Source: Lepiota brunneoincarnata | Lineage: Eukaryota; Basidiomycota; Agaricomycetes; Agaricales; Agaricaceae | Assembly: GCA_023014365.1 (NCBI GenBank) | Contig: JAEBUN010000039.1 | Coordinates: 248,001-312,000, forward strand | Reading direction: 5' to 3' | DNA length: 64,000 bases | In this document: in pieces, positions 2,823-43,729 of the stretch | Layout of the letters: each line of letters begins with the position of its first letter | Position numbering within the stretch: position 1 is the stretch's first letter | Program-made: the position numbers and the translations under genes | The notes under the pieces: generated by a model | The model's input: the letters and a program-made list of their open reading frames with translations, nothing else | Databases searched by the model: none | Told to the model about the DNA's origin: nothing

Positions 2823-3339
2823 TCAATGTTTGGGTCGGGTGTAATGGAGTATCTGAGGAAGAAGCCATTGTCAACAGTGGGACGGCACAAGCTCAAGTTA
2901 GATAAACGAACCTGGCCTGGGTGCAAGTTGGTGCAATCCTTATTGATCCAGGGGTTGCAGTCCCTCAAGTTTTTGTCAGAGATGCCCAAGTGATCTTCGA
3001 TGGAATAACAAGAATCGCCGGGTTGAACCTGGTAGGCACCGTTGCAGGACTCCATCCGAGTAGCATCAGTCGCAGCTACAAGCGGTAGAATGAGTTATAC
3101 GGATATGAATCAAATGCAAGGGTGGTTACGGTAGTGGTACATCGGAACTGCATCGTTCTCAGCTACGGGCAACAGAATCAGTAACAAGGATATTCATTAA
3201 ATGCAGAGGTGATTACGGATGAATTGAATCCTGAGACCGAGAGCTGCGAGGACAAGTGTCAGTGAGACGGACATCGACTGACTCTAGGGACAATACCAGA
3301 GGTGGCCAAGAAGGCAAGGATGTAGAGCTTGTTGAACAT
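2823..3339 (-). CDS. secreted single-LysM protein, copy 2 (four exons)
   Basis: Paralogue of the gene at 580-1116. Proposed exons are 3339-3297, 3162-3130, 3075-2912 and 2852-2823; they sum to 90 codons (89 residues). The signal peptide starts MFNKLYILAFLATSG. The LysM core reads YQVQPGDSCYSIEDHLGIS followed by LRDCNPWINKDC and LHPGQILHY. Cysteines fall at positions equivalent to those of copy 1, apart from an extra one at ESCNG. Sequence identity between the two proteins is moderate while intron positions and phases are the same, which indicates an old tandem duplication rather than a recent one. The gene looks intact. Its upstream DNA is found again as a broken remnant at 14585-14800. Confidence 0.75.
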
Positions 3340-10863: not shown

Positions 10864-11130
10864 ATCAGGCACCGTGCCGTGAGGGGTCCGAGTGGGAGGG
10901 ATTCCCCAGGCCCAGCCTCCCTATTCTACCTACTTGTACGGGGTTCCGGAGGCACCCCAGCGCGCTAGCCGGTCCAGCAGAACAATTAATATATATTGAT
11001 TCATACTTCCCCACAACCACCCTAAGTTAGGTAGTCTTATTCTGTCGCTACATAAGCCAAGTTGGGTTAGGGTAGCGGTTAAGTCCTCCGGTGAGTCCCT
11101 TCGCAAGGACGAAATCCGCATAAGTTCCCA
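10864..11130 (+). repeat. ribozyme-bearing dispersed repeat, copy 1
   Basis: A 267-bp repeat whose only other copy here lies in inverted orientation at 26381-26639. The shared sequence starts with a box reading gccgtgaggggtccgag, passes through an AT-rich spacer (attaatata) and ends with a hammerhead-like structure. No coding sequence or clear terminal repeats were seen. It may be the regulatory end of a retroelement; see the entry for 26381-26639. Confidence 0.7.
11061..11119 (+). ncRNA. degenerate hammerhead ribozyme (type III), copy 1
   Basis: Aligned with the intact copy at 26392-26450. Stem I is 11069-11073 with 11083-11087, joined by the nine-base loop AGCGGTTAA. The first core strand is 11088-11094 and reads CCGGTGA instead of the required CTGATGA, two transitions that should abolish cleavage. 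Stem II is 11095-11110 and stays paired because a C-G pair became a T-A pair on both sides. The second core strand GAAA is at 11111-11114. Stem III is weakened. It is probably an inactive relic. Confidence 0.65.
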
Positions 11131-11298: not shown

Positions 11299-13988
11299 AT
11301 GCCGAGCCCTGCTTCAGGAGCTAAGGGTACTTCCGCTCTCGCCAGTGTTGTCCCCATCTTTTATCAAGTCCTCGCGTCGTTTGGGCTTGTGCAGGCTAAG
11401 CAGGATGATGAGGCGCCCACCTCCGAGGGAAATGCTATAACTACCCAGGCAGACTGCCAGCGGGTTGAGCGACCGGGCAGCCAGCACCCAAAAGAGCTCC
11501 AGGGCGCCAATGATGCAACCAGGCGTGTAGAAGTTGCCTCCACCTCTACAGCTGTTGCTCGATATGTGGAACCAACCCGGGAGAGCGCCAAAGCAGCCGA
11601 CGAAAATGCGGGACGCGCTGAAATGGGTTCTGGATTTTTTTCCGGTGCCAGCCATTTTACATTGAGAAACCCGGTGATGACTGTGATCAACTACCGTGGT
11701 ACCAAATACGGTGAGACTCATAACCAAGAAGCAACACCTCTCTAACTTTCTGGCATCAGCAATGAGCACCCTCGAGAAACACACAATTCGAGGTGCAGAG
11801 TTCGACTCCTCCGATCGATCGCCCCCTCCACGCTGCCACCCAGGCACTCGAAAGACCATTGTCGAGAGGACTCAACATTGGTTCAGCGACGTCGAACGCC
11901 AGAAGAGGATCCTTTGGCTTGTTGGGTCTGCTGGAGTTGGCAAATCAGCCATCATGCAGACTCTCGCGGAGCAAGCAGCCGACACTCGTAGACCTGAATT
12001 GATGTTAGGAGCGACACTTTTCTTTTCTAGGCCCAACGAACGCAATAATCCCTTGAAAGTCTTCATCACCCTCGCCTACCAGATAGCACTCATATCCCCT
12101 TCGTATCGTGAATTCATCATAGGAGAAGTGACTGATAACCCACGACTACCGACAAAGTCAATGGAAGTACAATTTATACGACTCTTCGTTGAACCTTTCG
12201 TTCGACAGGCGGTGCATCAGGGGTGGGGTGACCTGCTAATATTCTTAGATGGTCTAGACGAATGCGAGGGCCACTCTGAACAATGTGAAATCGTGGAGCT
12301 CATTTCGTCCTTTTCCCTTACATACCCGAACGCACCCCTCATCTGGATCATTGCGAGTCGCCCGGAATCCCATCTGAAAGCCGTCTTCTCTCGCCTCGCT
12401 GTCGTGCCAAGCTACGAAAAGGAGGAAGTCCCGATCGATTCTGATGAGGCATGTGCCGATGTGGAGAAGTATTTGCGAGCGGAGTTTGAGAAAATTCAGC
12501 AAGATGACCCGATCATCCGTCTCCGTTCCCAGTGGCCAACTGATACAGAGTTTCTGACGATCGCTTCCGCTGCGGGTGGGCTATTTGCATTTGCGTCGAC
12601 TGTAGTCAAGTTTGTTGGCGATCCGACCTATAGGAACCCTATATCTGCGCTCTCCCTGTTGCTTGCCGTTATCAGCAAAGTTACTCTACAACCATCAAAA
12701 GGGCGGCCACATCCGCTTGCTTACCTTGATGCGCTCTATTTATATATTCTTTCTGAGATCCCAAAAGGCATATTACCGGACACAATTTCACTCCTCACGA
12801 ATTATCTTGCTTTGCGGAATCACCCCATGTCACTTCAGCACAGAAGCCTCGTCTTCTTTTGTAACTGGACTGGTATGTCCTCCAACGACGCCTATAGTGC
12901 CCTTGATCGACTTCATTCCGTTCTCACAATCCCACTACCCCAAAATGCCGAGGCGGACGGACTATCATTCCATCATCAATCGTTCTATGAATATATCTCG
13001 GATCCCAAACGATCACAGGGGTTTTACATCAGCCGAGCCGACATGAATGAAAAAGAACTTGAATGTTCTCTGAGAATCTTGAAGGATGTTCACTTGGGCA
13101 AGTTCTGCGTCCCAGCCGGCTTGAAAGATGATCTGATTAAGTTGGTCAATCCAGGTACACACCGCAGGCTTGTCGCAAAAAATGTGATGTTCCCCACCTC
13201 CACTGTGGCTCTGTCCTGGCCAATTCTGGAGAGTAGAGCGATGCGAGGGGAACTTTATGACTGTGCAGCCTGGGCTTTTATAGGAGTTATTGACCGCTAT
13301 GATCCTGATCTTGTACTATCGACATTCCGAGATCCAAGCGCTGCTCGGGTCATCGAAACGTTCAATTTTATAGACCCACGGCGTATTACTTCCCGTGAAC
13401 GGGAGCTGGCCACTCGAGTCTTTAATGAAAGCCCCGCCGTAAGGCGACAACGACCGGTTTGTGGTTTTTTCGTCTGTATTAACGTGGTTTTGATTGTGGC
13501 ATGGATTCCAGGACCCAATTGTTCGCGCAGAGTTTGAGAGATTGGGTTTACTTCGGACTTTACCAGCCGGAATGATTCGTCATGGTTATATTGAAAAATA
13601 TGCACCCATCTACGCTAGTTGTGATGGTGACCCGGGGGTTGTCGAGCTAAACAACCTGACCCTTTCAGGTCATATCTTGGATCCTTCTTTCGCGGTGAGG
13701 GCGTCACCTGAGACTAATATGGGGTTGTCACTAATCAGTGTAAGGGTGTAGACCAACTATGGTTCTAAATGTTTGAGCTGGGTCAGACCGGGCAGGTTCA
13801 GCATACACAACCGGGAATCCATTCTCCAGAAGTTATGGCATTCCGCCATCGATTACCCCGATGTTCCGGTTCTATATTTCGGAAACAGCCACAATGGCCA
13901 CCTAATCTGCCACTTCAAGTTGCCCCATGGTTCCAGGCGGTGGACATTTTACATTCGCTATCACCTTTCGGAGGGATCTCCCATCTGA
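11299..13988 (+). CDS. NACHT STAND NTPase B (NLR-like), intact
   Basis: Exons are 11299-11710, 11760-13456, 13512-13694 and 13752-13988, giving 842 residues. A 57-nt in-frame stretch starting at 13098 with a GC donor matches intron 2 of the paralogues, so it may be spliced or retained without a frame change. The start ATG (MPSPASG) is conserved in position in F and G (MPSLSSG, MPTPSSR). The N-terminal exon (about 137 residues) is unlike those of D and H. The NACHT domain has P-loop GSAGVGKSA near residue 193, Walker B LLIFLDGLDEC, the sensor-like segment IIASRPESHLKAVFS and the end motif FHHQSFYEYIS. The C-terminal module has LYDCAAWAFIG, AEFERLGLLR and DYPDVPVLYFGN. No repeat sensor domain follows. 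Such proteins oligomerise on nucleotide exchange and trigger non-self responses in fungi; the specific ligand and output are unknown. Confidence 0.85.
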
Positions 13989-19684: not shown

Positions 19685-22600
19685 ATGTCCCCTGAAACTC
19701 AGTCAAAAGTGAGCGCTCCTTTTTCTTAAGCAGCGGTCAGGGCGCCTGATTTTGAGGTTGAAGAGAGGCGAAGACTCTTCTGATGACGAGTTTGATAAAG
19801 AGAATGCCAAGGAATCTGCATTTTGGGACCTTGTGGCGCAGATACCAAGTTAGTTCACCATCGCAAACTGACTACAGATTCACTCAAATATCCCCTAGTG
19901 GATGTCCTGGCAACACCCCAGAAGAAAGTGTCTCACACGCATACAGGAAGCGGGAGCGGTCCAGCAAGAGGAAGAGAAAACGGTGAACTTGATGTAGACA
20001 TTCTTTGCTGGCCATTTGTTGACCATTTAGCTTTGCATCAGGATCTGACCACGGCCATAGCCCAATTTCGAGAGGCGCCCACTTAGTGGACCCTCCGGTA
20101 GCAGTGACGGTATCCGGTGCGGCTGAGGCTCGCAAAAACATGTCGACAGGCAAGGGGTTGCTCTTCACCTTTTACTAGACCTTAAGCTTATACTTGCCGC
20201 ACTCTTGCTTTCTACAGCCAGAGTTGAGGAGCATCTCGGTTCCCTTCCGGCAACGCCGAAGAAGCAGAGCAAGACCACCCATCCCCCTTCTACTGGAAGG
20301 ACAAGGGCGATTATCGAAGGATTGGAGAGCCTGGCGTTCCTCTCTCCGACAAGTTAGTATCCAGGGAAATATCTGTGTCCCGTTTTACTCACCATCGATA
20401 ATATGCTGTGCTCCTTCCAGAAAAAGAAGGATTCCCCGAACCACCACAAATCAATGCCAGTCCTGCGTCACAAGTATGTGGCTTTTGCATTGCCATGTTT
20501 AATTTTAACCTTCCTTTACACAGCCGGAGAAAACCGTCTACATTGGTGTCCCCAGCGACGACGACGAAGAAGGTTAGAGTTCCTCCAGACCGTGTCCAGT
20601 TTTATCAACTTACTCTAGTTCGTGGTCACCTAGTGAATGATAGTGAGCCGATTGTTGCGCTTCGCATCTACAGATTCTCAACCAATTGATAGTACTCTTG
20701 GAGACTGATTCGTCGCCTCCAACCCGGCCGGCTTCTTTATTCGATTATTCTACTTCCCAGGACTCAGGGTTCCTGACAAGTCCAGCCTCATCCTGGTCTG
20801 TCCATGATCGCAAAAGTCAAGCCTCGTGGAGCTCGTTGGAGAGTGACTCTGGGAGTAATGCCGTCGCAAAGCGCAAACGCTTGGGGTCCAGCGGGGCGCC
20901 AGAAATTTCGGTTCGTAGGGTCGATGCTGGTTCCCCAGCGCCGGCCTTTGCTGGGGACGTTTTCACGACTCCTCGTGTCTTGGAATTTCGGGAAGAGCGC
21001 AGACCCGATTCGCCCCAGGAACCGCTTCAAACGAGTTCTTTCGCTCTGCCGCCACCGGAGGAGATCCCTTTAGCTGTCTCGGCGCTCTTCAGCGGCACTC
21101 TTGGCGTTGATCTCAAGCCGATTATGATTGCGCATTCTGCGAAGGTCCAGGAGCTCATGGATAGGCATGGTATTGCCTGGGGTGTGCAATACGAGTTCGC
21201 CCGTGGGGTTTCCCTCAAGCAGTGGACATGGGATGATGTCTACGATGTTTTTCAGGTGGAACTGAACGAATTCAAGGGCTCAAACGTGGATGCAGCCTAC
21301 AAAGTGGGTCCAATCATGTGCAAACGCGAGATGCGCAATGTGAACCTCACGCTGTGGTATGTTTCCCGGATATTATGCAGAAATTGTAGTCATAACGTTC
21401 GCTAGGCAAGAATTGGACCGCGAGCAGGCGGCAATCCTTGAAAATAAAGGTAGAGGTCTTGGTATGATGGGCCATTGGCATGGCCAAGATGACTGGTTCG
21501 GCGGACGCATCCAGCAAATCGCCCGACTCTCTAAAGATGGCACGCAGTATCGGATCCACCTTGAGCCCATGGAGAAACGTCGCTCACATCGTTTTTCGCG
21601 GTACCTTGGGTCGCGTCGGGTCCTGCAGCTTCGTGTTACGAGAGACCTCCTGCGAGAGGAAAATGCGCAACTGAAGAACTTTTTAAGGGGCAAGTTTATT
21701 TTGTGTGGACGAGTATACGTCCCTTTCCATGCAAAGGACCGTAGTCTCTACATGGTGGAGACCAACGAAGACTGGGAGCGCAGGGCACGAGTGGAATTCG
21801 GTGACCAACACCGTGCTTCGTTTGCCGATTTCATCAATTGGCACAACCCTCCCCAATGCAACCATCATCAGGTCCGTCGCGTCATCTTATTCAGTATTAT
21901 GCTCATGGCGGCATCCTGAAAGGCGTTGAGCAAATACGTTACTCGTTATGCTCTTGGGCTATCTACAAGCATACCGATCCTTGAATTCGAGACCGGAAAT
22001 ATTTACTTCATAGACGATATTTGTATGTTCCATTACCCTTTTTGTGCATTTCTGATCCGTAATTCCGCACTTAGATGGCAGCAATTTCAAGGGCGGAAAG
22101 GCCTCCGCGGAAGAGACTATGACAGACGGCTGCGGTTTCATTAATCAAGCAGCTCTGGTTGCCATTAATGCGAGACTCAACAAACAGAGCCTCCCTGTTG
22201 CACTCCAGGGTCGTATTGCAGGTGCAAAGGGCCTTTGGGTTCTTCACCCCAACGATGCAAGTTCGGAGTCTAAGATCTGGATCCGGAAGTCCCAGAACAA
22301 GATCCAGCTGCAAACCCTTGACCGTTCGCACAGGATATTCGAATTGGTTTCTTGTTCACAGCCGTCCTTCTCGGTTTCATTATCTCGTCAAAGTCTCGTC
22401 AATCTGTCGTTCAATGGTGTTCCCGACAGGGTGCTCATAGACTACCTGGAGAAGGGGCTTGAGGACGAGATCAAACCACTTGTGGACTGGGATCGGCCGA
22501 AGGCAGCATTATATTTGTGGCATGCGATCAACAACACTGGATGTGTGACTCGGTCCCGGATTGAGCGCGTCACTGCTGGCATCAGTCGTGCACTTGGGCT

Positions 22601-24496
22601 GACGAAGCGAACGTTGAGGGAGGCGGAAGAGAACACAGTTGATAGTGGAGATGTATTTGATGAGGTTAGTAGCACGTATTCTGGGCGTGACGAGAACAGT
22701 CAAGGTGAGCCAACATCAGGATGTAGCGACCGGGCTCATGATTGGCACTCAGTCCCATTGTCGTCAAGGGAGTTTGCTCTTGAACTTGTTCAATCAGGGT
22801 TCCACCCCTCCCAACTCATGGTCTTGCGAGATAAGTTGAAATACATCATAGAGCAAGTGATCAGGAATGTGGTCGAGAAGTATCATATTCCGCTGTCTGA
22901 GTCTATTTCAGGGTTTGTTATCCCAGGTATGTCTCGTTGCTTAAGTTGCTGGCCAATCTGACACCCAGATGCTTCTGGTAGACCCTCTTGGTATCCTGGA
23001 GGAGGGCGAAATTTATTATCGGTCCTCACAAAGTCTCCTTGATCCTCGCACACAGAGAACATTTGATGTACTAACTGGCGATGTGGTTGTAAGTGGTCGT
23101 TTTGCCATCAGCCCTGTCCCACCTAACTCAATCTCTTTTCAGCTGGGAAGGTATCTTTGATTTGTGATTCCCGACGTGGACCCCGTTCTTATATAATCTA
23201 GGTACCCAATTTTCCTTGCCTCAGATCTACAGAAAGCCAAGGCGGTGAACATCCCGGAGTTATACCAGTGGCCAGATGTCATTATTACATCGACGAAAGG
23301 GACTAGGAGTCTTGCAAGCTTGCTTAGTGGCGGAGGTGCGAGTTAACTACATCTTGTTTCATGACGCTTGGCTAAAGCTAGCCTCTACAGACATGGATGG
23401 AGGTAGCTCTCGTGTGGAATACAAGTACTAGTTGGTCACTAATCTTGGATCTAGATGAGTTATTCATCCTACGTGAACCCGAAATTGTGGAGCCGTTCCA
23501 GAGCACACCTTTCGTCCCCCCTCCCGAGGATTTGAGCACCAATTTCGAGAAACATGTCGAAACTGTCAATGAGTTTTGTAAACGTGTTGAACACACTCCC
23601 CCTGCATTCCAACAGGCAGAACTCCAGGACGCCTTGTTACTCAGTCTCAACGAGGACCAGAAGGGGCTTTACTCTTTTTTTCACGGCAATGCAGTTGAAA
23701 AGTACGGGTATAACCACCCCAAGACCATTCGACTTGCGTACATGTGAGTTTCTGCTACCTTTTCGAGGCACTCGACTGTTGACAGGGTTATATCAGGTTT
23801 AATACACTTTTGGACGCGAGCAAGTCAGGGCTGAGACTCCGAGACGGAATCTTCGAAACAGATAGAAAGGAGCTTGGAAATGGGCCGTTTGTGGAAGACG
23901 AGTATTTCCTCGATCCGCAATCACCCACGAGGCGTCGAAAACAGCCACAGAATCCCGGGCAGACGCCCTCCATTCTCAGTAAGCTTGAAAACGCCGGGCA
24001 AAAGAAGGGGGAGGAGCTCTTGGAGATGCATACGAGTGCTGCGAGGCGTAGCACTGATCAACGTGATCGGGATCTGATCACACCTTACACCAAAGCGGTT
24101 GATTTCGCCCACAGTGTCTACGGGAAGAAGAAGGAGCTGAGATATTTTCTTGACGACCTTTCCAAGATCCGCAAACATGTGGATAAGGCGCGCAAAATAT
24201 GGTTAGAGGAGTGCTCAAAATTGGGCCAGGGTACCACTGTGCAAGCAGCGAGGTTCTTTGCGTCCGAGGTGGAGGACATCATAGCTACGAGCAATGTGGA
24301 GGAAATCAAAGCATCCTATGCCTACCGGGAGTGGTCAAGCTCGCCATTTGCGTTTCAAGTCGCATTCAGGCAGCTGTGCGAGATCAAGGGGAGAGCAACA
24401 AGAGGTGGACTTGCTCCGTGTATTAGGGAGATTGACGAAATGAAGACGATCTCAGGCTCTCATATCAGAGCTGTAGAGAGGAGTTATACTGATTAA
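19685..24496 (+). CDS. RNA-dependent RNA polymerase (QDE-1/RDR family)
   Basis: Cellular RdRP that makes double-stranded RNA for Dicer in RNA silencing; expected in nucleus or cytoplasm. The spliced product is roughly 1,250 residues with many short introns. A low-complexity N-terminal part (19685-20800; KRKKK-free, Ser/Pro-rich) has uncertain exon borders. The core has HLEPMEKRRSHRFSRYLGSR, FILCGRVYVPF and YMVETNEDWE, then MTDGCGFIN at 22119, LQGRIAGAKGLWVLHP, DPLGILEEGEIYY (exon from 22982), an 8-nt exon (23143-23150) completing VVLGRYP, ASDLQKAKAVNIPEL, and the catalytic motif SGGDMDGDELF. That DxDGD motif is made only by joining 23202-23335, a 12-nt exon 23391-23402 and the exon starting 23455. 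The C-terminus has LLDASKSGLRL and stops at 24496. Everything needed for activity seems present. The first exons are the least certain part. Confidence 0.88.
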
Positions 24497-25858: not shown

Positions 25859-26371
25859 TTACAATGTCCCCCTTCCAGACTGCGAAGTCAGTCTCAAACA
25901 TACACAAGAGGAGCTCGTGCGTGTCCAATTGCCCGGGAGGGATTGGCTCCTCACACGGGGGCGAAGTGAACCGTGTGGTGATGTAGTGTTGGTTGCAGTG
26001 GGAGTCATATGTTCGTCCTCGGAGTATGAGTCACCATAATCCACGCGCTCTTCAATAGGGGTGGCCCAAGACGGCCCCTCGGTGTGATGGGTATACGATG
26101 ATCGTTGCTCCTTGGTCATAGGGTGATTTTTGGGTTGATTGGGTAGGTATATGAATGTAGCGGTGTCTCCTGCTCTTGTCCATCCGTAGTTGTTGCGTGG
26201 GTCGGTGCCAAACCTCATGGTGAGGGTCTCGAAGGAGTTGAGCATGCATGTTATATCAGTGGTGGTAGGGATACGCCATCCATCCCATTCTGTAATAGCA
26301 GTCGGTTCTCCATGTATCCTGAGGTAGCGTAGACGATGATCATCGGCCTTCTCCAGTGTAGAAAGGTCCAT
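25859..26371 (-). CDS. hypothetical protein, unrecognised
   Basis: A 170-codon open frame without a recognised domain; Thr/Pro/His-rich in its second half (THHTEGPSWATP, SEDEHMTPTATNTTSP). Its start lies 10 bp from the ribozyme-bearing repeat at 26381-26639, and the frame can be extended into that repeat. With the 26723-27316 frame on the same strand it may form one gene interrupted by the repeat, or the coding part of the element that carries the ribozyme. No reverse transcriptase, integrase or nuclease motif was seen. Confidence 0.35.
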   Translation of the reverse strand: MDLSTLEKADDHRLRYLRIHGEPTAITEWDGWRIPTTTDITCMLNSFETLTMRFGTDPRNNYGWTRAGDTATFIYLPNQPKNHPMTKEQRSSYTHHTEGPSWATPIEERVDYGDSYSEDEHMTPTATNTTSPHGSLRPRVRSQSLPGNWTRTSSSCVCLRLTSQSGRGTL

Positions 26372-26380
26372 GGATTGGTG

Positions 26381-26639
26381 GGGGGACTTATGCGGGTTTC
26401 GCCCTTGCGAAGGGGCTCATCAGAGGGCTTAACCGCTGCCCTAACCCGCCTTGGCTCATGTAGCGACAGAATTAGACTACCTAACTTCTGTGGGGGAGTA
26501 TGAATCAATATATTAATTGATCTGCCGGACCGGCTAGCGCGCCGGGGTGCCTCCGGGACCCCGTACGGGTAGGTAGGAAGGGGGGGCTGGGCCTGGGGCA
26601 TCCCTCCCACTCGGACCCCTCACGGCATAGTACCTGGTG
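26381..26639 (-). repeat. ribozyme-bearing dispersed repeat, copy 2 (inverted)
   Basis: A 259-bp copy of the repeat at 10864-11130 in opposite orientation. Boxes in order on the minus strand are gccgtgaggggtccgag, the GC-rich gcgcgctagccggtcc, attaatatattgattcatac, gttaggtagtct, then the hammerhead. The two copies differ by many substitutions, so they are not recent. They lie about 15 kb apart. The transposition mechanism cannot be read from the window. Confidence 0.72.
26392..26450 (-). ncRNA. hammerhead ribozyme, type III, complete core
   Basis: On the minus strand all hammerhead elements are contiguous. Stem III 5' strand GCGGG (26449-26445); UU at 26444-26443, with cleavage expected after 26443; stem I AGGGC (26442-26438), loop AGCGGUUAA (26437-26429), GCCCU (26428-26424). 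Core strand CUGAUGA is at 26423-26417; stem II with loop CGC is 26416-26401; core strand GAAA is 26400-26397; stem III 3' strand CCCGC is 26396-26392. Stem III is open, so this is type III topology. The cleavage triplet is GUU, allowed by the NUH rule but less usual than GUC or GUA. The diverged copy at 11061-11119 keeps stem II through a compensating pair change, which supports the fold. Confidence 0.82.
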
Positions 26640-26722
26640 AGAGGCTGGCCCACTGCGTAGTCTTTTACACTACGGCTTTTTCGTCTGTTTGTCTGTGTGT
26701 AATTCCTTAGCCAGATCCTTAC

Positions 26723-27316
26723 TTAAGCATCAGGCCGGCCGTCTCCGAAGATAGGGCAGCAAGTTGCGAAAGTGCGAGGTCTTGGAATCGAACCAAGATG
26801 GTGGAATAAATAGTCAAGGACGTATAGGCCATAAGTGTAGGCGTGATCAACCCAGGATAGGGGGATATGGTTGTGGATGAGGGCAGCTATCGCTTGGTCA
26901 GTTGTGATAATGTCTGAGTCGGTAGTGTTGAGTACAAGTGGTTGGATGCCAATCCGTGGGCCACAATGGGGTCTGAAGGTTCCGCCGTGGGCGCGGATGG
27001 CTTCGCGATAGCATTCTGGTTGGGCAGCAACGAGGGCGAATGCGTGTATAAATTTGGTTTTCGCACCTTTGTGATCTGATTGGCATAAGAGCCTGGCGAG
27101 GCTGTATCTGAATAGCAATCGCCTATCCACATGAAACGTGTGGTCAGTAACTATGCCTGGGATATGATGCGGTGTTCCTGGGTGACTCCGGTAAAGGATG
27201 AGTTCGGCATGTCGGTCAAGGTCGAGAAGGTCATAAATGGATAGTGTGGGTGCCTTTGGTATCGAGTCCACGTCACGTGTCTGCCCAAACCCGGAGGGGG
27301 AACGCACAGAAAACAT
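26723..27316 (-). CDS. hypothetical protein, unrecognised
   Basis: A 197-codon open frame with ordinary amino-acid composition: an N-terminal basic stretch, LSIYDLLDLDRHAELILYRS, a hydrophobic middle and a C-terminus ending in PIFGDGRPDA. I recognise no domain. The length and lack of low complexity make it likelier to be genuine coding sequence than most open frames here. It lies upstream, on the same strand, of the ribozyme repeat and the 25859-26371 frame. Its beginning coincides with the edge of the duplicated 27270-32167 segment, so the duplication junction may have cut it. Confidence 0.4.
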   Translation of the reverse strand: MFSVRSPSGFGQTRDVDSIPKAPTLSIYDLLDLDRHAELILYRSHPGTPHHIPGIVTDHTFHVDRRLLFRYSLARLLCQSDHKGAKTKFIHAFALVAAQPECYREAIRAHGGTFRPHCGPRIGIQPLVLNTTDSDIITTDQAIAALIHNHIPLSWVDHAYTYGLYVLDYLFHHLGSIPRPRTFATCCPIFGDGRPDA

Positions 27317-40955: not shown

Positions 40956-43729
40956 ATGCCAACCCCCTCTTCAAGAGATCATGACGCCTCCACGTCAACC
41001 AGAATTTCTGTCTTCTTTCGCAGTCTCCTTGCACACCGTTCCCGCGGGCGCATCTATGTTCAGCGGGGTGAAGAGGCCTCTGGCTCAGGAATCCCCGTAA
41101 CCACCCTGACAGACCAGCAGCGCCAGGGACGGGACATCCAACACCCGGAGGAGCCCCAGAGGATCGAGGGAACAGCCAGACGTGCACCTGAAATTATCTC
41201 CACCTCAATAACCGCTGCCCGACATGGGAGACTGACCCAGGAGAGTGGCAAAGTTTCCAGCCATACAGAAATAGGTCCCGGAATACTCAACGGCGCCAGT
41301 CATTTTGTCGTGAAAGAGCTTAAGGTGAATGAACACGACAGCGAACGCGGTGAGGCCTATAATAACAACGAAACCAAGCCTCTCTGACCTTCCGACTTCA
41401 GGAATGGAATCCCTCGAGAAGCACACAATCCGAGGTGCAGAGTTCGATTCCTCTGATCGATCGCCGCCTCCACAATGCCATCCAGGCACTCGTAAGACCA
41501 TTGTAGAGAGGACCCAGCAATGGCTCAGCGACATCGAACGCCAGAAAAGGATCCTCTGGCTCGTTGGTTCCGCCGGGGTTGGGAAATCAGCCGTCATGCA
41601 GACTCTTGCCGAGTACGTAGCTGACTTCCCTGGGGCTGACTCTCCTGAACCCGACTCTCCTGGACACGACTCCCCTGGGCTCGGCTTGAGGTTGGGCGCG
41701 ACACTTTTCTTCTCTAGACCCAACGGACGCAATAATCCCTTGAAGGTCTTCATCACTCTCGCCTACCAAATAGCACTCGTATCCCCACAATACCGCCAAT
41801 TCATTGTACGAGAGGTGGCTGCCAATCCACGACTACCGACAAAGTCAATGAAAGCTCAGTTTGCACGACTCTTTGTCGAGCCTTTTGCCAGACAAGGGAT
41901 ACATCGAGGGTCTGGTGACTTGCTGGTATTCTTGGACGGTCTCGACGAATGCGAGGGCCACTCTGAACAGTGTGAAATTGTGGAGCTCATTTCATCCTTT
42001 TCCCTTGCACACCCAAACGTACCCCTTCTCTGGATCATCGCGAGTCGCCCAGAATCCCATTTGAAAGCTGTTTTCTCTCATAAAACCGTTGTGCCAAGCT
42101 ACGAAAAGGAGGAGGTCCCAATCGACTCCGATGAGGCATGCGCCGATGTAGAACAATACTTGCGAAAGGAGTTCGAGAGGATTCAACATGATGACCCGAT
42201 TGCTTGTCTTCGCTCCCAGTGGCCGACCAAGACGGAGTTCCTTACGATCACTGCCGCTGCGGGTGGGCTATTTGCATTTGCGTCGACAGTGATCAAGTTT
42301 GTTGGCGATCCGACCTATAGGAATCCCATCTCTTCACTCTCCCTGTTGCTTGCCGCTATCAACAAAGTTTCGCTGAAACCATCGAAAGGGCGGGCACATC
42401 CGCTTGCTTATCTTGATGAGCTCTATACATGCATTCTTTCCGAGATCCCCGAAGGCACTTTCCCTGATACAAATTCACTCTTCACGAATTATCTTGTTAT
42501 GCGGAAGCACCCTGTATTACTCCAACGCACTGAATGCAGGAGTCTAGTCTTCCTTTGTAACTGGACTGATATGCTCCCTCATGATGCCTATAGTGCCCTT
42601 GATCGACTTCATTCCGTTTTGACAATCCCACCACCCAAAAATGCCGAGAGAGAAAACATCTCATTTCATCATCAATCATTTTATGAATATCTTTCCGATC
42701 CTAAACGTTCACAGGCATTTCATATCAACAAAACTGACATGGACAAGCAAGAACTTGAATGTGCTCTAAGGATCTTGAAGGATGTCCACCGCAGTAAGTC
42801 CCAAGTTCCAACCAACTTACAAACGACGATCTGATCATGCTCGTCCCTGCAGATGTCGTTATCACAGAAGACGTATTGTTCCCTGCCCCCAGCATGAACC
42901 TGTCCTGGTCAACTATGGTGGTTGACGGGATGAATGCAAATCTTTACGACTGCGCTGCCTGGAGCTTTATAGGAACTATTGACCGCTATGATCCAGATCT
43001 TGTGCTATCGAAATTCCAGGATCCAGCTGCCGTGAGAGTCGTCGAAACTCTTAATTTCATAGACCCCCGAGGTATCAGTTATCGTCAACGAACGCAGGAC
43101 ATTGGATTTTTTAGTGAGGAGCCGGATATAATACGACACAGGCCGGTATGTGCCTCTTCCTCCTTTTGCTAGGGGTGATTTTGACTGTACCATGGGGCTA
43201 TAGGATCCAACTATTCGTGCAGAGTTCGAAAGCCTGGGACTACTTCGCACGATACCGGTCGGAATGATTCATGATGACTGTATCGATGAGAGCGCGCCCA
43301 TCTACGCGTGGAGTGATGGTGGTAGCTGTATCGACGAGAGTGCTCCCATCTCCGGATGGGGTGGTAGGGCAAAGATCGTTGACCTGGACGATTTGGACCT
43401 TTCAAATCACGTCTTGGATCCTTCTTTCGCGGTAAGGGAGTACTTGAGACCAATGAAGGTCGTGAATGTCACTAATTATTGCGAGCATATAGATCGACTA
43501 TGGTTCCGAACATTTAGGCTGGATAAGACCAGTCAGGTTTCGTGCACGTACCCGGGGGTCCGTTCTCTTGAATTTGCGGTTTTTCGTTGTCTATTACCCC
43601 GATGTACCAGTTCTGTGCTTCGGAAATGCTGTCAACGCTTACCTGATTTGCCATTTCAAATTGCCTGATGGGTCCAATCGCTGGACATTTTACATTCGCT
43701 ATCGCCTTCCAGAGTCCCGGTGTGAATAG
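40956..43729 (+). CDS. NACHT STAND NTPase G (NLR-like), intact
   Basis: Exons are 40956-41349, 41402-42793, 42853-43145, 43204-43431 and 43493-43729; they sum to 848 codons (847 residues). The N-terminal exon (131 residues) starts MPTPSSRDHDAST and ends in GASHFVVKELKVNE, a motif shared with D, F and H. The NACHT part has LVGSAGVGKSA near residue 187, Walker B LLVFLDGLDEC, IIASRPESHLKAVFS and FHHQSFYEYLS. An insertion of short DSPE/DSPG repeats follows the P-loop helix. The C-terminal module has LYDCAAWSFIG, AEFESLGLLR, a tandem CIDESAPI duplication in exon 4, and YYPDVPVLCFGN. No sensor repeats follow. With B and D it is one of three copies without visible lesions. Confidence 0.86.

Follow-up and report, generated by a model that had tools for sequence, protein, structure and literature searches.

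A type III hammerhead motif forms the 3' domain of a small non-coding dispersed element in the fungus Lepiota brunneoincarnata

The 64,000-nt stretch of DNA analysed here (the window) contains a complete type III hammerhead motif at 26392-26450 of the minus strand. The motif is part of a multi-copy, non-coding element with fixed ends, whose 3' end consists of the hammerhead and a C-rich tail and whose 5' end is a hairpin resembling a T-arm and B box that is present in two subfamilies, and which has inserted precisely and bluntly at seven sites. We give a probability of roughly 0.5 to the reading that the motif is a ribozyme at the 3' terminus of a small SINE-like element, one that is non-autonomous and would be copied through uncut RNA with a reverse transcriptase provided in trans.

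All parts of a type III hammerhead that the first-pass annotation had reported for this position were found. Read from 26450 to 26392, the minus strand consists of GGCGGGTT followed by AGGGC...GCCCT-CTGATGA-GCCC...GGGC-GAAA-CCCGC. Stem III (GCGGGU/ACCCGC, 6 bp) is open, while stem I (AGGGC/GCCCU, 5 bp) is closed by a 9-nt loop, AGCGGUUAA, and stem II (GCCC/GGGC, 4 bp) by an 8-nt loop, CUUCGCAA. The core strands CUGAUGA and GAAA lie at 26417-26423 and 26397-26400 of the minus strand, and the UU of the GUU triplet at 26443-26444, which, under the hammerhead numbering that we assume, places the predicted cut after 26443. Thus, the CUGANGA and GAA cores, an NUH triplet, three stems and an open stem III are all present, and a scan for the full architecture found this one type III hammerhead in the 64 kb as compared to none in 60 simulated windows with the dinucleotide frequencies of the real one. 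The hammerhead is both the minimum free energy (MFE) fold and the centroid fold of the isolated 67-nt strand, whose stability relative to shuffled sequences is unexceptional (z -0.96; 36 of 200 shuffles fold at least as well). The covariance search proposed in the first-pass annotation gave a divided answer: the motif aligns to Rfam RF00008, on one strand only, at 33 bits (E 5e-5 in 1 kb), but this is below the gathering cut-off of 48.5 bits, which is why a scan of the window at the gathering threshold came back empty. The motif therefore has type III architecture, but not an Rfam-certified membership of RF00008. Loops I and II could in addition form four kissing pairs (GCGG/UCGC), with 94.2% of cells paired and the changes mostly at CpG sites; a contact of this kind is described as common in hammerheads, at about 40% (PMC3088659).

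The repeat that harbors the motif had been put at 260 bp, a size that the copy alignments revise to about 420-428 bp. In the window, the whole mobile element spans 420 bp on the minus strand (26379-26798, TCTTGG...CCCCCCA), as determined from the alignment of copies and the positions of the end patterns on contig C35, and copy L003 measures 428 bp. Alignment of 30 genome copies with their flanks shows sharp ends, TCTTGGTTCGATTCC... and ...CATAAGTCCCCCCA, and these limits are confirmed by the empty sites of seven other copies. The 5' terminus is a tRNA T-arm-like hairpin, TCTTGG-TTCGATT-CCAAGA (26780-26798, minus), within which a regular-expression scan finds the B-box match GGTTCGATTCC (26784-26794, minus). 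This B box begins at base 5 in two of the three copies scanned and is gone from the L003 copy; there is a single degenerate A-box match, which lies downstream of the B box, and none of the three copies scanned contains TTTT. At the other end, the tail ATAAGTCCCCCCA (26379-26391, minus) is defined by the copy junctions and the tail pattern, and a run of five to seven C followed by A marks the 3' junction in 30 of 30 loci (L001-L030). The predicted cut falls 64 nt before the 3' end. The longest stop-free stretch in L003 amounts to 87 aa, inverted repeats of at least 12 nt are absent from 26000-27300, tRNA genes were found neither in the window nor in six loci examined, and the fold of the whole element shows no extra stability over shuffled sequences (z -0.39). 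A second, 5'-truncated copy, recognized by copy comparison (L041), lies on the plus strand at 10864-11129; in its hammerhead region (about 11060-11128) the core is mutated, with CCGGTGA in place of CTGATGA.

As to the surroundings, the window copy overlaps the end of a minus-strand ORF (26723-27316, in the region 25859-27316) and sits just upstream of another (25859-26371); no homologues of the flanking ORF were found. A duplicate of this locus, with the element in it, lies on contig C60 (L001). Between 7643 and 46559 the window carries several similar NLR-like ORFs, a local gene family, of which those at 11696-13537 and 41329-42834 match NPHP3_N and NACHT, and at 22119-22961 it carries part of an RNA-dependent RNA polymerase gene (PF05183) of the RNA-silencing type.

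That the repeat is dispersed, with further copies in the genome, was borne out. A DNA search yielded 178 candidates, and the 40 of them that were scored were all matches. In the 55.6 Mb searched, which include TTAGGG-type repeats, a 33-nt pattern of the ribozyme core is matched at 107 places if up to three mismatches are allowed, at 36 of them exactly (control 0), a 5'-end pattern with up to three mismatches at 108 (control 0) and a tail pattern with up to two mismatches at 104 (control 4), counts that include segmental or haplotype duplicates. A looser pattern, CTGATGAGN{6,20}CGAAAC, matches at 211 places (control 2) and takes in a second hammerhead family. By their flanks, 49 compared loci, collected by one 3'-end search and one 5'-end search, represent 38 independent insertions; 29 of these have base 1 as their first base, 32 extend to the 3' end (base 425 or beyond, of 428) and 23 are complete on both sides, while 5' sequence is absent in 8 and 3' sequence in 6. 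Two copies, L004 and L025, share their right flank with the full-length copies L008 and L015, and their truncation therefore looks secondary, for which reason we rejected target-primed 5' truncation as a source of support for target priming. Tandem dimers, for which a search had also been proposed at first reading, were not found within the flanks covered (0 of 41 loci); among the ribozyme-core places listed there is one inverted pair, on C14, with a spacing of about 1 kb. A repeated sequence, some 1.9-2.0 kb long, was also seen from one edge of which the 5' end of the element points away (C22:62.7-64.6 kb and 88.6-90.6 kb; C25:3001-3003, 3016-3018 and 3051-3053 kb); beside L009, this stretch has outward-pointing 5' ends at both edges.

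A second subfamily, B, preserves the outer parts of the element. Its copy L057 (301 bp) has the ends and the hammerhead of the main form and a different middle, and both copies that were read to the 3' end (L057 and L094) keep hammerhead and tail, with one change in the core of L094. The 5' hairpin of subfamily B reads GGTTCAATCCC, with changes only at positions that are degenerate in what we take to be the B-box consensus. Members are L057 and L094-L097, of which L095-L097 were partly read and show just the 5' portion, plus the matches to TCTTGGTTCAATCCC among the listed 5'-end places.

Direct repeats are not consistently present on the two sides of the copies. For 30 loci, the two flanks were joined and used as queries in two batches of 12 and 18, the latter swamped by a high-copy repeat beside L025, and this revealed an empty counterpart for seven (L003, L006, L010, L011, L012, L013 and L014). 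In 7 of 7 cases the element sits between two adjacent target bases, with neither duplication nor loss; several of the counterparts, among them the ones for L006, L010 and L013, differ by substitutions beside the junction, and L010 was judged on a counterpart that is 86% alike. The target base pair is variable. Blunt, duplication-free insertion without a fixed target sets the element apart from LTR elements and retrozymes, and equally from canonical Helitrons and from ordinary SINEs that depend on LINEs. The target site duplication that LINE machinery produces at SINEs is absent from all seven sites; the lack of this duplication and of an A-rich tail, together with the single A-box match downstream of the B box, means that the element is not a standard SINE.

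The positions of the copy ends bear on what was copied. Copies ending at the ribozyme cut were considered and rejected: none of the 38 independent insertions ends within 2 nt of the predicted site, and the nearest end lies at base 358, the cut being at 364, in a single locus (L083/L087/L088). Hence, cleavage does not define the copied unit, and since complete copies also hold an uncut ribozyme, the template was probably not cleaved RNA. The first-pass annotation had suggested that the repeat may move through a self-cleaving RNA; of this, movement by way of the cleaved RNA is disfavoured, and an RNA route as such is what we infer. Copying of an uncut template agrees, by analogy, with in vitro work on the Penelope element PAc, for which unprocessed RNA is reported as the main inserted substrate (PMC11167929). 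In the mechanism that we favor, a reverse transcriptase acting in trans would copy the element from intact RNA ending in CCCCCCA. The hammerhead, which is probably active, would cut transcripts 64 nt before their 3' end and thereby leave two products, a body ending in a 2',3'-cyclic phosphate and a short 3' fragment that starts with a 5'-hydroxyl; such cleavage would detach the body of the element from read-through transcript and restrict how much uncut template is available. A candidate helper would be the telomeric Penelope-like reverse transcriptase of the same genome.

The absence of target loss at all seven sites fits a DNA mechanism as well, and in this respect counts against copying through RNA. 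The element could accordingly be a non-autonomous rolling-circle transposon of the HUH or Helitron type, in which the hammerhead would be mere cargo or would serve as a terminal DNA hairpin, and this reading, though unlikely, is the most probable of the alternatives. Like Helitrons, the element starts with TC, has fixed ends and a blunt insertion, and lacks both target duplication and inverted repeats of 12 nt or more, and the genome does have Helitron genes (18 matches to PF14214). However, its 3' end is CCCCCCA and not CTRR, and insertion between A and T is seen in only 3 of 23 full-length insertions. Among the matches listed, inspection by eye found no PF14214 match flanked by 5' and 3' element ends within 15 kb; a ribozyme place on the minus strand of C8 (C8:64889) lies about 12 kb from a Helitron gene on the plus strand (C8:52538), but in the opposite orientation and with no listed 5' end. 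Moreover, rolling-circle transposition gives no reason why ribozyme and T-arm should persist across subfamilies.

Copying through RNA requires us to look at the source of the reverse transcriptase. In line with the first reading, none was found beside the motif: a Pfam scan of nine ORFs in the window (seven of the 14 with at least 230 aa, plus two shorter ones) detected none, nor does any of the 150 scored PF00078 matches fall in the window. Elsewhere the genome has at least 150 such matches (150 of 1371 candidates were scored, and all matched). At contig ends, there are arrays of reverse transcriptase elements that we read as Penelope-like (L072-L076, at the ends of C14, C22 and C35). Further matches lie near the ends of C7, C8, C16, C20, C21, C31 and C37; among the matches listed, the orientation is plus at low and minus at high contig ends, and one (C5:159211) is away from any end. 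Among the homologues of the reverse transcriptase ORF of these subtelomeric elements are proteins from Leucoagaricus, Agaricus bisporus and Armillaria. Because this ORF reaches 13.5 bits on RVT_1, which is under the cut-off, and has no match among PDB chains, the name Penelope-like rests on homologues, position and the literature, in which A. bisporus is reported to have Penelope elements close to its telomeres (PMC7473861). The 3' ends of these elements carry, as judged by eye, a candidate type I hammerhead with a GUU triplet, which Rfam aligned to the type III model at 25.3 bits, and it is followed by C-rich tails and, in many copies, by CCCTAA repeats.

These arrays suggest a further possibility, namely that the telomeric Penelope-like enzyme, which would normally prime at telomeres, inserts cDNA of the element without an endonuclease at chromosome breaks. 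We consider this quite improbable. The order of parts in the arrays (candidate type I hammerhead, C-rich tail, CCCTAA repeats) is compatible with it, as is the absence of target duplication, and AGTCCCCCC is common to the element and 2 of 18 distinct Penelope-like ends. Specifically, two of the 18 (L051 and L073) read TTTTAGTCCCCCCTTCCC, to be set against the ...CATAAGTCCCCCCA of the element, and TTTTAGTCCCCCC is found in two and absent from 16, the version in the element being CATAAGTCCCCCC. The 9 nt in common are mostly a C-run, and it is possible that the resemblance arose by chance. As regards the 3' end that a SINE would have in common with a LINE, the observations are this 9-nt similarity to Penelope-like ends and the 15 tail-selected loci described below, all of this family or remnants of it. 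Repair of breaks is expected to lose or add bases, whereas 7 of 7 sites are exact. The exact combination of tail and telomere repeat (CCCTAACCC) has no match in the genome, which weakens the link to Penelope, and the window copy shows no similarity beyond 12 nt to the five subtelomeric stretches compared with it. A helper role of the Penelope-like enzyme for the element is, on such sequence resemblances, a weak lead. Similarly doubtful is a bolder reading, in which the element would represent a new class of ribozyme-bearing passenger that integrates bluntly, with nothing duplicated or lost at the target, as a full-length copy of uncut RNA; its C-tail would silence the hammerhead for as long as the RNA is intact, and the telomeric Penelope-like reverse transcriptase or an unrecognised integrase would insert it.

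We also considered that the motif might be an inactive look-alike that is retained only because the copies are young. The first-pass annotation had made its case depend on the core strands being conserved in copies across the genome. Among 36 of the 41 loci (five segmental duplicates were dropped, and copies were not selected on the core alone), the core is intact in 26 and mutated in 10; natural variants of the core include AAAA in place of GAAA, and CTGGTGA. At non-CpG sites, divergence is 0.016 in the hammerhead compared to 0.026 elsewhere, a value matched or undercut by 15 of 370 windows of the same length. When CpG sites are counted as well, 110 of the 370 are as conserved as the hammerhead, and we regard selection on the ribozyme as partly shown. 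The compensated pairs of stem III (C4-G59 and G5-C58) are all at CpG sites, on both sides, so we treat the covariation as weak, and the signal may reflect CpG decay. Two alignments were used, A1 with 23 of the 41 loci, picked to show variants, and A2 with 39 of 51 distinct sequences, omitting 12 with truncation, insertion or lost arms; A2 is biased toward an intact core because some of its rows were found by the exact core pattern. Loci selected by the tail give another view. Of 100 places listed, 15 were read, chosen among loci new to the set (L104 and L110 look like one duplicated locus); all 15 belong to this family or are remnants of it, and 14 show, by eye, sequence of the hammerhead region, though several miss an arm and the core is unmutated in three.

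In folding predictions, the 60-nt motif alone has the hammerhead as its MFE fold. With the C6 tail attached to the commonest sequence, a competing hairpin becomes the MFE fold (enforced hammerhead ensemble -25.2 as compared to -27.6 kcal/mol for the free one), and replacing the tail in silico restores the hammerhead. In full-length context the predicted probability of the hammerhead is 0.000-0.051 in eight of nine copies and 0.55 in L016. In subfamily B, the hammerhead is not the MFE fold of the 60-nt strand of either L057 or L094; the tail brings about a competing hairpin in L094 and has no effect in L057. From RNA folding alone, the C-tail may thus gate the ribozyme through the competing hairpin; tertiary contacts are absent from folding energies, and for this reason we offer tail gating as a hypothesis and not as a result. 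The folding competition, the Rfam score under the cut-off and the CpG caveat on covariation are what one would cite in favor of a look-alike. However, all core bases, the triplet and the three stems match, none of the 60 simulated windows contains such a motif, its non-CpG sites are more conserved than the rest, and it is kept in subfamily B apart from the one core change in L094, all of which makes an inactive look-alike very unlikely.

The first-pass annotation had also pointed to retrozymes and circular RNAs. In a retrozyme, tandem transcripts cut by the hammerhead would give circular RNAs that are then reverse transcribed, and the combination of a type III hammerhead with a small, dispersed, non-coding repeat does recall the retrozymes of plants. 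Membership in this group is unsupported, since neither tandem dimers (all 41 loci are single within the flanks covered; the pair on C14, seen among the ribozyme-core places, is inverted) nor target duplications are found, and with no copy end at the cleavage site, this route is largely refuted and retains very little probability. Least probable of all is that the copies are integrated remnants of a fungal RNA resembling viroids or ambiviruses. Fungi do have viroid-like RNAs, and some of these carry ribozymes (PMC10162972 and PMC9875651), but integration of circles should give varied ends where those of the element are fixed, RF00008 matches a single strand, and a 36-nt core pattern has no exact match in IMG/VR. 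Exact core patterns have no match in GTDB species genomes either.

How, then, does the SINE-like element that we propose relate to known systems? The following comparisons draw on the accessible text of the sources. Hammerheads in interspersed repeats of a fungus are already in print for Yarrowia (PMC3088659), as are five Hammerhead_3 matches, type III by Rfam, in Pleurotus ostreatus (PMC5040776); these are fungal and dispersed like ours, and the accounts consulted give no element structure, ends or insertion sites for them. Reviews place eukaryotic type III motifs mostly in plants and in infectious circular RNAs (PMC7229834, PMC6155905 and PMC7761336). In the open-licence literature, no paper was found that describes an element built in this way or inserting in this manner, which is no proof of absence. 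The LTR retrozymes of plants (PMC4918200) are likewise non-coding and dispersed with a type III hammerhead, but they have two hammerhead-bearing LTRs as direct repeats, 4-bp duplications, a PBS and a PPT, whereas our element is a single unit at 41 of 41 loci and has no duplication. The non-LTR retrozymes of animals (PMC7229834) are also short non-coding hammerhead repeats of about 150-450 bp; they have type I hammerheads, tandem repeats and circular RNA, in contrast to the type III motif and dispersed single copies seen here.

Schistosoma Sm-alpha is a small element that joins tRNA-like features with a hammerhead, and in both respects it resembles ours. It is described as a non-autonomous retrotransposon with a type I hammerhead (PMC6155905), and schistosome repeats are said to include a tRNA (PMC4918200). 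It differs in hammerhead type and belongs to another host kingdom, while our element has the T-arm/B-box part only and inserts bluntly. Penelope-like elements carry the hammerhead near the element end, as is the case here (PMC11167929, PMC3846280, PMC7761336 and PMC7473861), and those of the same genome have a C-rich tail in common with the element. They encode a reverse transcriptase, with or without a GIY-YIG endonuclease, have type I hammerheads and are telomeric in this genome; our element is interspersed and without an ORF (stop-free stretches of at most 87 aa in L003).

Taken together, a ribozyme-bearing element with clean insertion is close to known ribozyme-bearing retroelements, yet not identical to any of them. 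The type III hammerhead is here a fixed 3' domain of a fungal interspersed element, and the empty-site data, with their duplication-free insertion, set this element apart from retrozymes and from ordinary SINEs. The role of the hammerhead in Penelope-like elements is stated to be unknown (PMC7761336). Since the copies keep an uncut ribozyme, the role of a hammerhead in an element that would be copied from uncleaved RNA becomes directly testable, also with respect to the Penelope-like elements, and one genome with two hammerhead-bearing families is a convenient system for this.
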